Both the position numbers and the translations under genes were made by a program. DNA of 64,000 nucleotides from an uncultured Alphaproteobacteria bacterium (GTDB taxonomy: Bacteria; Pseudomonadota; Alphaproteobacteria; HIMB59). The DNA lies in NCBI GenBank assembly GCA_902591315.1, contig CACJAI010000002.1, positions 1 to 64,000 of the forward strand, given 5' to 3'. Below the pieces are notes generated by a model. The model saw nothing but the letters and a program-made list of their open reading frames with translations. It had not been told where the DNA came from and did not search any database. Numbering within the stretch: the first letter of the stretch is position 1; each line of letters starts with the position of its first letter. Below are positions 28,335-36,485 of this stretch, piece after piece.

Positions 28335-28799
28335 TTAAAAATACAAATACAGATAATCTTGAGCGATAATTTTTGAAGCAATAAAAACCTTTTCTGGTGG
28401 GAGCTCATCATAGCTGCTCCAACCGATGTATTTCAAAGAACCATCTAGACCAACGAGTTGGCGGATTTCATCTAAGGACCGAAGAGGGTGACCCTCTAAA
28501 GATAGATCGAGAAGATATGAATGGTTCTCATTTCCTTGGACATGCAAACTCACAACCTGCCATTGATTTTGATTTTGATAGGGAAACACATATATGTACG
28601 ACTGTGTTTCTATACTAATTGTTTGAGCGTAATTGTGTATTTGGTAATAAATTTTCTCTTTAAATAATTGCTTTGTTTCTTTATCTAAACTACCCAGCAC
28701 AAAAATCGTTGACTGATTAATATCTGCTTTAATTTGTAAAGAAGAGGTTAGGAACATGACCACAAATAATAATTTTTTAATCATGTCCATCCCTGGCAC
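28335..28799 (-). CDS. Secreted hypothetical protein
   Basis: Signal peptide; overlaps the upstream lipoprotein gene. Confidence 0.5.
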   Translation of the reverse strand: MPGMDMIKKLLFVVMFLTSSLQIKADINQSTIFVLGSLDKETKQLFKEKIYYQIHNYAQTISIETQSYIYVFPYQNQNQWQVVSLHVQGNENHSYLLDLSLEGHPLRSLDEIRQLVGLDGSLKYIGWSSYDELPPEKVFIASKIIAQDYLYLYF

Positions 28800-29308
28800 G
28801 TATCCAAAGCACTGTTAAGAGCAGAACTGAGTCCGTTAGCTTTCATTTCTATCTCTTGTTTTTCAAACCTATTGAGAGGATCATTAATAGAAAATGAAAT
28901 TTGTCCTCTTTTGGATAATAGCTCTTCCAGCTTGGAGAAGTGATGTTTATAAAAACTCATTAACTCCCAACGAACGTATCCATCGGCATTCAATCGGCTT
29001 GCATTTTCGCCTTCATAAGATTGACCTGAAAGCTTCCAATCAAAAGTTTCACCACTCATGACGTCAAAATCTTTGGGCTCAAATCCTCGATTGGTGTAAA
29101 CTAAACGGGCATCACAACTTAAATTTGGATCGACAATAAAAATAATCATTTGATCTTGGTTTTCCAAGCTAAAGACTAAGTCTAAGTTTTCTTCTTTAGC
29201 CTCCATATGTATCCAATTATCAAATTCATGATGCATAGGACTACCTTCTGCTTTTAGAGAACAATTAGTTAAAAAAACACTGATAAATAACAATAATAAT
29301 GCTCTCAT
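28781..29308 (-). CDS. Putative lipoprotein
   Basis: Lipobox-like 'VFLTNCS' N terminus. Confidence 0.55.
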   Translation of the reverse strand: MRALLLLFISVFLTNCSLKAEGSPMHHEFDNWIHMEAKEENLDLVFSLENQDQMIIFIVDPNLSCDARLVYTNRGFEPKDFDVMSGETFDWKLSGQSYEGENASRLNADGYVRWELMSFYKHHFSKLEELLSKRGQISFSINDPLNRFEKQEIEMKANGLSSALNSALDTCQGWT

Positions 29309-29628
29309 TACTTCTTTTCTCCTGGTTTGAAATGGCTCATTAAAAATTGCTTAGGAAAGGGTACTTTAAGATAAGAGGCATATTGCCTAGTAAAAAAGTA
29401 ATTTAAGGGATACTGGATAAATTCTAGATTACCATTCTCAAGAGCATCAAGAGTGCTACGAGAATAATTCAAATGCTGCATTACATCCTCAACAGAAATA
29501 TTATTTTCTTGCCTGATTTGTGCTAAACAACGCAAATACTCTTCAATTTCTCTTAGGGATTGGGGTTCATTTCTTTTATTAGAGGACAACCTCCTACCTA
29601 AAGTAGGAGTAATATAATTAGACTTCAT
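29308..29628 (-). CDS. HTH protein (RodZ N-terminal/HTH_25-like)
   Basis: 'LAQIRQENNISVEDVMQHLNYSRSTLDALENGNLEFI'. Confidence 0.6.
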   Translation of the reverse strand: MKSNYITPTLGRRLSSNKRNEPQSLREIEEYLRCLAQIRQENNISVEDVMQHLNYSRSTLDALENGNLEFIQYPLNYFFTRQYASYLKVPFPKQFLMSHFKPGEKK

Positions 29629-30198: not shown

Positions 30199-30207
30199 TT
30201 TGTTTTT
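30171..30207 (+). terminator. Terminator-like hairpin AATTAAGAGTG...CACTCTAATT-TGTTTTT overlapping the HTH stop and channel-gene start
   Basis: 10-bp stem with one bulged A and T-rich tail, read directly. Confidence 0.55.
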
Positions 30208-31552
30208 AAGGGGGATAATTTTAGGATTTTGGGTTTTCTTTTCCAGTGTTAGCTGGGGAGCAGAAATTTGTGAACGACTTCTAAAAAAAGACTTCAGAGA
30301 AACGTCTAACATTAGACTAGCTTATAACGATAGCGGTGTAGTTCTTGAGCAAAATCAACCTATTATCAACAAAAAACGCTTTGGCTCTTATGCTTTTAAT
30401 ACTCCTCTTAAGGCTGGAGTCCGCATCTTAGCTGTTGATCAAAAACCTGTTGCTTCCGATGATGTTGATGCCTACTTGTATTTATCCAACTTACTAGAGA
30501 CATCAGCAATGAGAGATCTCTCACTAACTGTTCAACATTTAGATGGGGAAGTGGAGATAGTTGACCTTAAAAGAATTCCTTATCTAGGTCACCCTATAGT
30601 TGAGGCAGATATAATATTAAATGATTTTGAGGTCATACAACAAAGTAGTAAATCAAATTTGAATTTAGAGGTGAATTTGCAGTGGCAAAATGAAGACTTA
30701 ATTCATAATTTTTTCAATTTAACAGAACTTGATAAATCACCTATTAAATGCATTTTTAGAAAGTCAGCAGAGCTTGAAAATATTTTACAAAAAATTTGGT
30801 ATCCTACATTTGAAACTACTCAAACAGGATCTTTTATAAATGATATAACCTTTAAAAGTTTACTTATCACAAACGATAAATCAGATCCTTTTAATTTTGT
30901 TCTCAAACAACAAATTAATTATCAAGTTACGAATTCCTCAGATTTTAAAAAATTTCCTTTTGATAATATTTCCACATCAGCTGATTTTATCTTCCAAGAC
31001 ATTGATTTAAGCACGTCTTCATTATACGACCCAGAAATAATTATAAGGGACGGTAATGAAATTTTGTATGAGTGGCAAATTAATGATCACACTTTAAATT
31101 GTTGTGACTCTCAAATTTATGGACAAGGAGTGCTCCAAAAACTGGAATACAGTTTTGATCTTAATCGTAAATCCTTTTACTATATCTTAAAGATAATCCT
31201 ACCTGTCATATTTTTGGTTTATTTATCATTTATGGTTTTCTGGATACCTTCACGTGAGCTAGAGTCTAAATTAGCTGTTAGTCTCGGATCTTTACTTACT
31301 TTAGTGGTATTTCAATTTACATTCGGAGATGATGTGCCAAAAATAAATGATTTCACCGTTCTGGACACAATGATATTGGCCTCGTACTTATTTACAGGGA
31401 TTTCAACGTTTATTACCATTATAAATCATGTTTTTTACTCTCGATCAAAAGAGATAACAACTCAACAAAATTATGACAAAAATCTCTTCGTTATTCTGTG
31501 TTTAACCTATCCAGTTGTAACTACTTTATTTGCCTTGAACGTTTATAATTAG
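30200..31552 (+). CDS. Prokaryotic pentameric ligand-gated ion channel (Cys-loop/pLGIC superfamily) with extra N-terminal PDZ-like domain
   Basis: Pro-loop 'FKKFPFDNISTSADFIFQ'; pre-TM1/TM1 'NRKSFYYILKIILPVIFLVYLSFMVFW'; TM2 'SRELESKLAVSLGSLLTLVVFQFTFGDDVPK'; TM3 'FTVLDTMILASYLFTGISTFITII'; C-terminal TM4; signal peptide; TTG start. Confidence 0.8.
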   Translation: MFLRGIILGFWVFFSSVSWGAEICERLLKKDFRETSNIRLAYNDSGVVLEQNQPIINKKRFGSYAFNTPLKAGVRILAVDQKPVASDDVDAYLYLSNLLETSAMRDLSLTVQHLDGEVEIVDLKRIPYLGHPIVEADIILNDFEVIQQSSKSNLNLEVNLQWQNEDLIHNFFNLTELDKSPIKCIFRKSAELENILQKIWYPTFETTQTGSFINDITFKSLLITNDKSDPFNFVLKQQINYQVTNSSDFKKFPFDNISTSADFIFQDIDLSTSSLYDPEIIIRDGNEILYEWQINDHTLNCCDSQIYGQGVLQKLEYSFDLNRKSFYYILKIILPVIFLVYLSFMVFWIPSRELESKLAVSLGSLLTLVVFQFTFGDDVPKINDFTVLDTMILASYLFTGISTFITIINHVFYSRSKEITTQQNYDKNLFVILCLTYPVVTTLFALNVYN

Positions 31553-31646
31553 ATATATTTCAAAACTTATATTATTGTCTAAAAAATTTAAATATCTCCC
31601 CAATCTTTATTTTTAAAATTTAGTATCTTTGTCTTCAGTGCAAAGA

Positions 31647-31807
31647 CCTCTCTCTTCCTTTCTGTTTTCTAGTTACTCCTTCTCTAAGTCATTTCCTACC
31701 AGGTTAATAAATGACAAACAAAAAAAAGAGAGAGGAAAAATTGAGGTGGTTTTTTCATGGTTCCTTTCTGTGCTACGGCTAATCCCATCCTCCTGTACAT
31801 TAGCCGT
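31647..31807 (+). promoter_or_regulatory. Highly structured leader with three perfect inverted repeats
   Basis: CCTCTCTCTT 31647-31656 / AAGAGAGAGG 31726-31735; GTCATTT 31688-31694 / AAATGAC 31709-31715; ACGGCTAAT 31775-31783 / ATTAGCCGT 31799-31807. Confidence 0.6.
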
Positions 31808-32408
31808 GGTGCAAAGAGGAAAATACTTAATACTAATAATTACTTCTCTATTTATTTTCTCCTTAAGCTCAGCGATGACTTTAGAAAGATTTCATGGTTG
31901 GAATATTCAATTATTGGAGGAGGAAATGATTGCAATCGAACGTAGTGGTGATGTTGAAGACTCAGAAAATATAATTTTTGTTATGACCAAAAATAATTGT
32001 GATCGCGTTCTCCAATTCTTTGAATTATTTACTTTATCAGTTCACCCTGATCTCACAAAATTATTAGATAAAGAAATTGAACTCCAGGAAAATGGTCATT
32101 CAACCACCGGAATGGTGCATGAAATATATCCATATAAGAATGGACACATGATTTTAATAGGCATGGGTTCATATAATCATGAAACGATTAAAGAATATTA
32201 TACTTTTCATAAACGCTCTCGCTTAACAGTCACTGATGTAACTTTCGAGGAACCAGTCGCTTTAAGAACATTCATAGACTTACCTACAATACAGTGGGCT
32301 ATGCCTCAAGTAGAGGAAGCCATGGACAGAGCGCATAGGCATTGTAAAAAAATACCTGATCCCATTTCAGCTAGCCTAAACAATTCTCAGAAAGGACTAA
32401 AAACATGA
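31806..32408 (+). CDS. Secreted hypothetical protein
   Basis: In-frame GTG before 'KYLILIITSLFIFSLSSA' signal peptide; start is tentative, ORF-track N terminus (31629) is over the hairpin region. Confidence 0.5.
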   Translation: MVQRGKYLILIITSLFIFSLSSAMTLERFHGWNIQLLEEEMIAIERSGDVEDSENIIFVMTKNNCDRVLQFFELFTLSVHPDLTKLLDKEIELQENGHSTTGMVHEIYPYKNGHMILIGMGSYNHETIKEYYTFHKRSRLTVTDVTFEEPVALRTFIDLPTIQWAMPQVEEAMDRAHRHCKKIPDPISASLNNSQKGLKT

Positions 32409-34584: not shown

Positions 34585-35508
34585 ATGAATGTTTTAAGTC
34601 TTTTTGATGGTATTAGCTGCGCAAGAATAGCAATAGAAAAGTCAGGCTATAAAGTAAATAAATATTTTTCTTCTGAACTTGACCTTAAGTGTTGTGAAGT
34701 CTCCAAAAAAAACTATCCAGACAACATTTTTTTAGGAGATGTAAATAAAATTGAGTTAAACGCCTTACCAAAGATTGATATTTTGATTGGTGGAAGCCCT
34801 TGCCAAGATATAAGCCATGCCTTTAAAGGCTCTGGTCTTTATGGTTTAAGATCATCCTTATTTTATAAATTTGTAGATTTAAAGAATAAATTAAATCCAA
34901 AATACTTTTTGTTAGAGAATGTCAAAAGCAAATGGAACACGATGATGGATGATGCCATAGGTGTTGAAGGTGTAGAGATAAACTCCTGTTTTTTTTCAGC
35001 TCAATTTAGACCTCGTGTTTATTGGACTAATATTTATTTACCTAATATTCCAAATGAAATTTCAGATGATAAAATTGATGACATTCTTGATAAATCTGTA
35101 AAAGACAAAAAATATTTTTTTAATCCATCTATCGACAAGTATTTCAAAGACTCACCATTATCTTTTTATAAAACACAAGGAGGCATATTAAAAGTAGGAG
35201 AGATTCCGAGAAAATTATTAAAGGATAATGAACGACAAAGAAGAGTATACTCTATTAAAAGCAAATCCCCAACTTTACTTGCTAGAGCTGATACGACTAA
35301 GATATTATATAAAAATAGAGTAAGAAAGCTTACCCCATTGGAATGTGAAAGGCTTCAAGGTATTCCAGATAATTTCACATCTGGTTTTAGTGATACAAGT
35401 AGGTATAAGATGATAGGTAATGCCTTTACCGTTCAAGTGATTTCCAAAATAATATCAAACATTGGAAAAAAAAATTCTAAACCTCGACAAGTAGGACTAT
35501 TTGCTTGA
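34585..35508 (+). CDS. DNA C5-cytosine methyltransferase
   Basis: 'LSLFDGISCARIAIEKSG', 'GGSPCQDIS', 'LLENVKSKW', 'RKLTPLECERLQGIPDNFT', 'MIGNAFTVQVI'. Confidence 0.92.
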   Translation: MNVLSLFDGISCARIAIEKSGYKVNKYFSSELDLKCCEVSKKNYPDNIFLGDVNKIELNALPKIDILIGGSPCQDISHAFKGSGLYGLRSSLFYKFVDLKNKLNPKYFLLENVKSKWNTMMDDAIGVEGVEINSCFFSAQFRPRVYWTNIYLPNIPNEISDDKIDDILDKSVKDKKYFFNPSIDKYFKDSPLSFYKTQGGILKVGEIPRKLLKDNERQRRVYSIKSKSPTLLARADTTKILYKNRVRKLTPLECERLQGIPDNFTSGFSDTSRYKMIGNAFTVQVISKIISNIGKKNSKPRQVGLFA

Positions 35509-36485
35509 AGTTCATAGATTTATTTTGTGGATTAGGTGGCTTTAGACACGCTCTAGAAAAACATGGAGCAAGGTGCGTATTAAGTAGTGACAATGATAAA
35601 TATGTTGCTGAGTCATACTATTTGAATTTTAAAGATAATCCCTTAAATGATATTACTAAAATATTAGTAAAGGATATACCCGAATTTGATTGTTTAACAG
35701 CTGGTTTCCCTTGCCAACCTTTTAGTATAGCTGGTCATAGAAAGGGTTTTGAAGATGTAAGAGGCACATTATTTTTTGATATTGTTAGAATTTTAAATGA
35801 AAGAAAACCTGAATATTTCATTTTAGAGAATGTAAAAGGTTTAATTAATCACGATAAGGGCAGAACTTTTAAAATAATGCTTAATACTTTAGCTTCTAAA
35901 ATTAACGGTGTGGAGAACTCATTCGTTCATAAAGACTGTCTAGATTATAATGTTTTTTGGAGTGTCCTTAATGCTTCTGACTATAACGTACCTCAGAACA
36001 GGGAAAGGGTTTTTATAGTCGGTTTTAGAAATAAGAGTGTCAAATATCAGTTCCCACAACAAGAAAGACTCAAAAACAAACTTGAAAATATTATTGAGGA
36101 CAGACCTAATCAATTTAAACAAATCTCAGATCTATCTTATAAATACATAATTAAGTATTTATCAGAGCATAATAAATATAATGAAATTAAAAATCTGAAA
36201 TATCTAGTCGCTTCTGAGATCAGAAGGAGCAGGGTAAATTTCCGTTTTGACAACATATCACCTTGTTTGACTACTAAAATGGGTACCGGGGGAAATAATG
36301 TGCCTTACTTAGTTAATCAGAAAAGGTTTTTTACTTTAAAGGAGTGTCTTTCTCTTCAATCTTTTCCCAAAAACTACAAGTTAGTTGATAATTATTCTGA
36401 ATCTTTAAAGCAACTAGGAAACACAGTTGTAATCAAAGTAGTAGAAAAAGTTTTTTCTAATATGATTAGATATTCTTCTACTTAG
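35505..36485 (+). CDS. DNA C5-cytosine methyltransferase (HhaI/Dcm-like)
   Basis: 'FIDLFCGLGGFRHALEKHG', 'AGFPCQPFSIAGHRKGFED', 'ILENVKGL', 'NVPQNRERVFIVG', 'QLGNTVVIKVV'. Confidence 0.94.
   Translation: MKFIDLFCGLGGFRHALEKHGARCVLSSDNDKYVAESYYLNFKDNPLNDITKILVKDIPEFDCLTAGFPCQPFSIAGHRKGFEDVRGTLFFDIVRILNERKPEYFILENVKGLINHDKGRTFKIMLNTLASKINGVENSFVHKDCLDYNVFWSVLNASDYNVPQNRERVFIVGFRNKSVKYQFPQQERLKNKLENIIEDRPNQFKQISDLSYKYIIKYLSEHNKYNEIKNLKYLVASEIRRSRVNFRFDNISPCLTTKMGTGGNNVPYLVNQKRFFTLKECLSLQSFPKNYKLVDNYSESLKQLGNTVVIKVVEKVFSNMIRYSST

Follow-up and report, generated by a model that had tools for sequence, protein, structure and literature searches.

GLIC and ELIC, two prokaryotic pentameric ligand-gated ion channels (pLGICs), share with the protein described in this article an extracellular domain, an FPFD Pro-loop, a pre-M1 arginine, an M1 proline, and an M2-M3 PK motif, but differ from it in having no N-terminal accessory domain; to our knowledge, they also lack the vicinal cysteine pair found here. 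DeCLIC does carry an accessory domain between the signal peptide and the extracellular domain, as the present protein does; however, the DeCLIC domain is made of two jelly-roll lobes and takes up about half of the protein, whereas the domain found here is very probably a single PDZ unit of about 85 residues. The N-terminal domain of DeCLIC has been found to alter gating speed (PMC12664993). Other pLGICs also have periplasmic domains fused to the channel core, including fusions of the PBP-I type that were recognized by eye in the phylum sample used here; a PDZ domain differs from these in binding peptide ends and not small solutes. The PDZ domains of the proteases CtpA, Prc, and HtrA are matched by the channel PDZ in sequence family and in predicted, moderately confident fold; unlike these, it is fused to an ion channel and is not accompanied by a protease domain.

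The Channel Gene and Its Locus

The window analyzed here is a 64,000-nucleotide stretch (positions 1-64,000, forward strand) of contig CACJAI010000002.1, from assembly GCA_902591315.1 of an uncultured Alphaproteobacteria bacterium (HIMB59). The assembly amounts to about 1 Mb in a genus with genomes of 0.7-1.4 Mb, consistent with the small-genome marine setting proposed in the first-pass annotation. A single pLGIC copy is present in this genome, and its open reading frame has exactly the boundaries given in Table 1, where the features of the locus are collected; genes are designated by their lower coordinate. Translation starts at a TTG codon one base past the stop of the upstream gene, 29734, to which it is coupled, and this TTG is kept in most of the orthologues compared or is replaced by an ATG within one or two codons.

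Table 1. Features of the PDZ-pLGIC locus and of the channel subunit, with positions in the window.
Feature	Position	Strand	Basis or remark
28335: orphan secreted protein, candidate PDZ ligand	28335..28799	-	Only with PDZ-type pLGIC, 28/28 vs 0/24 genomes
28335 C-terminal tail, AQDYLYLYF-COOH	28338..28364	-	Orthologue comparison
28781: orphan secreted or lipoprotein-like protein	28781..29308	-	Locus comparison
29308: divergent HTH_25 gene	29308..29628	-	PF13413, 1e-7; kept at PDZ and PDZ-less loci
29734: CII/CP76-like DNA-binding regulator (weak match), 154 aa	29734..30198	+	Upstream of pLGIC; genome co-occurrence
PDZ-pLGIC subunit (very probable), 450 aa	30200..31552	+	ORF, profile matches, orthologues, start context
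Predicted signal peptide, residues 1-20	30200..30259	+	Read from sequence; hydrophobic N-terminus in all orthologues
Conserved pre-PDZ segment AEICERLLKKDFRETSNIRLA	30260..30322	+	C24 invariant, PDZ-less relatives included
PDZ domain (very probable), about residues 42-126	30323..30577	+	Orthologue Pfam matches, PDB profile search, AlphaFold2 and Foldseek, dN/dS
pLGIC extracellular beta-sandwich domain, residues 134-322	30599..31165	+	GLIC alignment; W292, C184, FPFD
Pro-loop FPFD, residues 252-255	30953..30964	+	F252, P253, D255 invariant in alignment A7
Vicinal pair C301-C302, beta9/loop C region	31100..31105	+	Comparison with orthologues and relatives
Transmembrane domain, TM1-TM4	31166..31549	+	PF02932; invariant R323, P335, E355, L358, L366, F373, P380, K381
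31629: orphan protein, hydrophobic export-type segment ahead of conserved body	31629..32408	+	Downstream; adjoins PDZ and PDZ-less channels

The Channel Core

A complete pLGIC pattern had been described in the product of 30200-31552 at first pass, and this description stands, all of the motifs then quoted being found in the translation. The Pfam membrane profile PF02932 (Neur_chan_memb), which has a cut-off of 28.1, matches the product with 38.4 bits (E = 2.2e-9), and residues 237-415 can be aligned with GLIC chains at an E-value of about 2e-14. Seven residues are conserved across the pLGIC superfamily (Jaiteh 2016, PMC4795631, Table 1), and all seven are present (F252, P253, D255, W292, R323, P335, and P380). 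The Pfam ligand-binding profile, PF02931, found no match in the window copy. Judged from sequence, the window protein is a pLGIC, its homology being far beyond chance; a pentameric state, the geometry of the pore, and ligand-gated conductance are inferred. Evidence for the four transmembrane helices is limited to the sequence and a low-confidence model, and full-length AlphaFold2 prediction with 16 close sequences (pLDDT 32) was unusable.

Aligned from the PK motif, K357 falls at M2 0' and L366 at M2 9', and the TM2 positions read E-2', A2', G6', L9', V13', F16', D20', and D21', giving an acidic mouth. The combination of E-2' with D20'/D21' suggests a channel for cations, although selectivity can only be inferred and this region is not predictive of it in prokaryotes (PMC4795631). 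C24 and C184 are common to relatives with and without the PDZ domain (PDZ-type and PDZ-less, respectively) and probably, by inference, form a disulfide. The C301-C302 pair, in turn, is common to all full-length PDZ-type orthologues examined and is missing from all PDZ-less and other relatives; since the GLIC alignment places it a few residues ahead of the loop C tip, it is not claimed as the equivalent of the nicotinic vicinal cysteines, and a redox or ligand-binding role is possible.

The N-Terminal Domain

The N-terminus had likewise been annotated as PDZ-like, and evidence from orthologues and profiles upholds a PDZ domain, with two amendments: it starts earlier than the quoted 'NTPLKAG', extending over about 85 residues from 'YNDSGVVLEQN' to 'DLKR', and the window copy on its own has no PDZ match in Pfam. 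The segment that precedes it carries a conserved AEICERLLKKDFRETSNIRL with an invariant cysteine. When 11 related N-terminal domains (alignment A2) were compared with Pfam at permissive E-values, matches were obtained to PDZ_2 (10/11), PDZ (9/11), and PDZ_6 (9/11). The best of these belongs to orthologue L063 (PF00595, 6e-10, 39.8 bits, cut-off 23.2); the other orthologues tested singly gave PDZ scores under the cut-off, among them L004, which is near-identical to the window copy (PDZ_2, 2.7e-4). The PDZ G-D motif (30416-30430) reads G-V in the window, with GTC at the codon that is GAC or GAT in the orthologues compared, and this may be a real change or an error introduced during sequencing or amplification. 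Assignment of the window domain as PDZ is thus an inference from its orthologues and from profiles.

Searched against the sequences of the PDB, the A2 profile placed PDZ proteins on top (4l8n, 3.8e-6; the PDZ of an Aquifex RseP homologue; DegQ). Structure prediction, which the first-pass annotation had proposed as a check, was uninformative at full length but yielded a PDZ-like model of residues 21-133 with moderate confidence (pLDDT 69, pTM 0.63), for which the first Foldseek ranks were the PDZ-containing proteins CtpA, CPAF, HtrA, and Prc (probability about 1.0, TM about 0.55); the best E-value was 5.8e-3, and none fell under 0.001. An accessory domain of the DeCLIC jelly-roll type is not supported, the domain matching PDZ in both sequence and fold searches. 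Between orthologues L034 and L039, dN/dS is 0.05 for the PDZ and 0.05 for the extracellular domain; PDZ values in other pairs run from 0.05 to 0.33, every computable one lying below 1, which indicates that the domain is under purifying selection. The D-x-G of its putative carboxylate-binding loop is invariant in A2, in the absence of binding data. Taken as a whole, the PDZ-pLGIC architecture is assigned with high confidence.

Distribution and Evolution

In a sample of 52 genomes of the genus, pLGIC matches were found in 31, and in 32 once G009 was added; this genome was first scored negative and was included because its contig stops inside a PDZ-less pLGIC gene. PDZ-type channels occur in 28 of the 32 (28/52), PDZ-less channels occupy the same locus in G002, G008, and G009, and the channel of G026 is of a different pLGIC type (L058). 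A closed genome of the genus, of 1,410,127 bases, gave no pLGIC match. The orthologue records carry the names of uncultured Alphaproteobacteria and, in one case, of a member of the Pelagibacteraceae, and pLGICs in Pelagibacter have been noted before (Jaiteh 2016, PMC4795631). In wider samples pLGICs are rare, with few among 385 genomes of the class and 399 of the phylum. No PDZ-like stretch was recognized by eye in the alphaproteobacterial pLGICs L072, L073, L075, and L076 (no profile scan was made, and some of these loci are cut at the end), and several long pLGICs elsewhere in the phylum appear, again by eye and without a Pfam scan, to carry a PBP-I-like domain. Without profile scans of the wider samples, a PDZ fusion peculiar to this group remains an impression only. 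Among more distant relatives, L054, L058, and L099 have possible PDZ-like stretches that were not significant (hhalign P 0.11, 0.12, and 0.04; no Pfam PDZ match), and no relatives were found in viral contigs.

Two further observations concern pLGIC genes elsewhere. Four genomes have second, divergent pLGIC paralogues (L049, L050, L051, and L052), and close to each of these lies a 29734 homologue of 30% identity. In two genomes of different orders, a gene for a PrsW-family intramembrane metalloprotease (PF13367) adjoins the pLGIC gene (L081:5561-6364, 1.4e-25; L099:2925-3602, 1.8e-32).

In a tree of the extracellular and transmembrane domains, the PDZ-less pair from G002 and G008 lies beside the PDZ-type group, with support of 100 for the joint group and 60 for the PDZ-type group itself, and as a result gain of the PDZ domain cannot be distinguished from its loss. 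The gene also bears marks of exchange in parts. In comparison with G016, G014, or G030, the flanking genes of the window show 88-98% DNA identity, whereas identity is 53% in the PDZ, 66% in the extracellular domain, and 56-57% in TM3-TM4; against G028, the PDZ and extracellular domains are 89% identical, TM1-TM2 65%, and TM3-TM4 48%. Codon-level profiles reproduce these steps along the gene. Such steps inside near-identical flanks point to recombination that swaps parts of the gene (module replacement).

A Conserved Cluster and a Candidate Partner

PDZ-type loci with as little as about 50% identity keep the gene order 28335(-), 28781(-), 29308(-), 29734(+), pLGIC(+), 31629(+). PDZ-less loci retain 29308, 29734, and the pLGIC, as well as a 31629 homologue if the contig extends that far, and one of them (L059) also has a 28781 homologue. 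A homologue of 29734 lies next to the pLGIC in all PDZ-type loci compared; its family is matched weakly by Phage_CP76 (6/6), and the regulator is present in 31/32 pLGIC genomes, G026 being the exception, vs 0/20 others. Neither the 28335 nor the 31629 protein has convincing relatives in the PDB or Pfam. A reading of the locus as a defence system was discarded, PADLOC having given weak matches only. In many loci (L031, L037, L039, L049, L063, L064, and L065) a shorter 31629 paralogue of about 190 aa follows the 31629 homologue. In G036 (L044, L057), the pLGIC, 29734, 28335, and 31629 matches come in pieces, reflecting sequencing errors or decay. Elsewhere in the window, 34585-36485 holds two neighbouring C-5 cytosine DNA methylases (PF00145).

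The gene whose distribution follows the PDZ domain is 28335: all 28 PDZ-type genomes have it, and the 24 others, G002, G008, and G009 among them, do not. Fisher P-values for the co-occurrence of the regulator and of 28335 are 1.7e-13 and 2.3e-15, respectively, with shared ancestry ignored; because the PDZ-less loci of G002, G008, and G009 are close to each other, and probably stem from one or a few events, the association rests on few independent events. The last nine residues of the 28335 protein are nearly invariant and hydrophobic (A/V-Q-D/N-Y-L/F-Y/F-L-Y/H-F), ending in Phe in all family members. PDZ domains usually take a free hydrophobic C-terminus as their ligand. That this tail is the ligand of the channel PDZ is a tentative inference, made without binding data, and conservation of the tail may instead reflect a role in the protein's own fold.

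How the Channel Might Work

The explanation that best accommodates these observations, which we consider evenly poised between true and false, is that a periplasmic PDZ domain on a pLGIC reads the C-terminus of an envelope protein; both binding and gating are inferred. The channel would be a homo-oligomer in the inner membrane, pentameric by analogy, with the extracellular domain, and the PDZ domain on top of it, facing the periplasm. The partner of the PDZ domain would be a periplasmic protein, with the 28335 product as the likeliest candidate, bound by its hydrophobic C-terminal tail; capture or loss of the tail would bias the extracellular domain and hence opening of the TM2 pore, so that a signal from an envelope protein is turned into ion flux. 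Expression of the channel would be controlled by the upstream HTH protein (29734), and there may also be a small ligand that binds to the extracellular domain. Regulatory peptide binding by the PDZ domain, for which there are no binding data, is itself a proposition that could fall either way, and the valine that replaces the conserved aspartate in the window PDZ counts against it. The more specific proposal of a protein-gated bacterial channel, in which 28335 encodes a dedicated secreted partner whose free C-terminus is caught by the PDZ domain, is doubtful while neither binding nor current data exist. The 'sensory channel' of the first-pass annotation is in the same way an inference, with no ligand or current data behind it.

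The PDZ domain could alternatively be structural, binding no peptide and steadying the assembly or tuning its kinetics through neighbouring subunits, as reported for the accessory domain of DeCLIC, which changes gating speed (PMC12664993). The PDZ-less relatives at the same locus, which imply that a channel can dispense with the domain, agree with this; it is nevertheless an unlikely account, given that A2 shows no variation in the D-x-G of the putative carboxylate-binding loop and that the co-occurrence of 28335 would be left unexplained. Very slightly less likely again is a general sensor of envelope stress, of the DegS/HtrA type, that would detect the C-termini of unfolded outer-membrane or secreted proteins, with 28335 acting as a competitor or modulator and not as a dedicated ligand. 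DegS recognizes peptides ending in a C-terminal Phe, structural matching ranks the PDZ domains of the periplasmic proteases CtpA, HtrA, and Prc closest, and the sequence matches include RseP-like and DegP/DegQ PDZ domains; yet the cluster has no protease or sigma-E link, and such a sensor has no need of a dedicated co-occurring 28335. A different kind of small beta domain at the N-terminus, with only a superficial likeness to PDZ, is very improbable, for although the window copy lacks a Pfam match and the model reaches a pLDDT of only 69, an orthologue scores well over the PF00595 gathering threshold, many orthologues match PDZ, and profile and fold searches agree.

Novelty and Implications

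No PDZ-pLGIC was found in the literature covered, from which preprints and most subscription journals were absent. What is new here is the occurrence of PDZ-type orthologues in 28/52 genomes of the genus, within a conserved gene cluster that also encodes an HTH regulator and secreted proteins, together with the presence/absence partner 28335, the replacement of modules within the gene, and the vicinal cysteine pair near loop C. The biological role is unknown for every pLGIC of unicellular organisms (Jaiteh 2016, PMC4795631). The conserved cluster, the presence/absence partner, and a peptide-binding domain together make the question of what this channel senses directly testable, and provide a concrete lead on what the bacterial relatives of neurotransmitter-gated channels sense. 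If reading of an envelope-protein C-terminus by the PDZ domain is borne out, the pLGIC would be under the control of a PDZ domain whose natural ligand is genetically linked to it, and the channel would report whether an envelope protein is present or has been processed.
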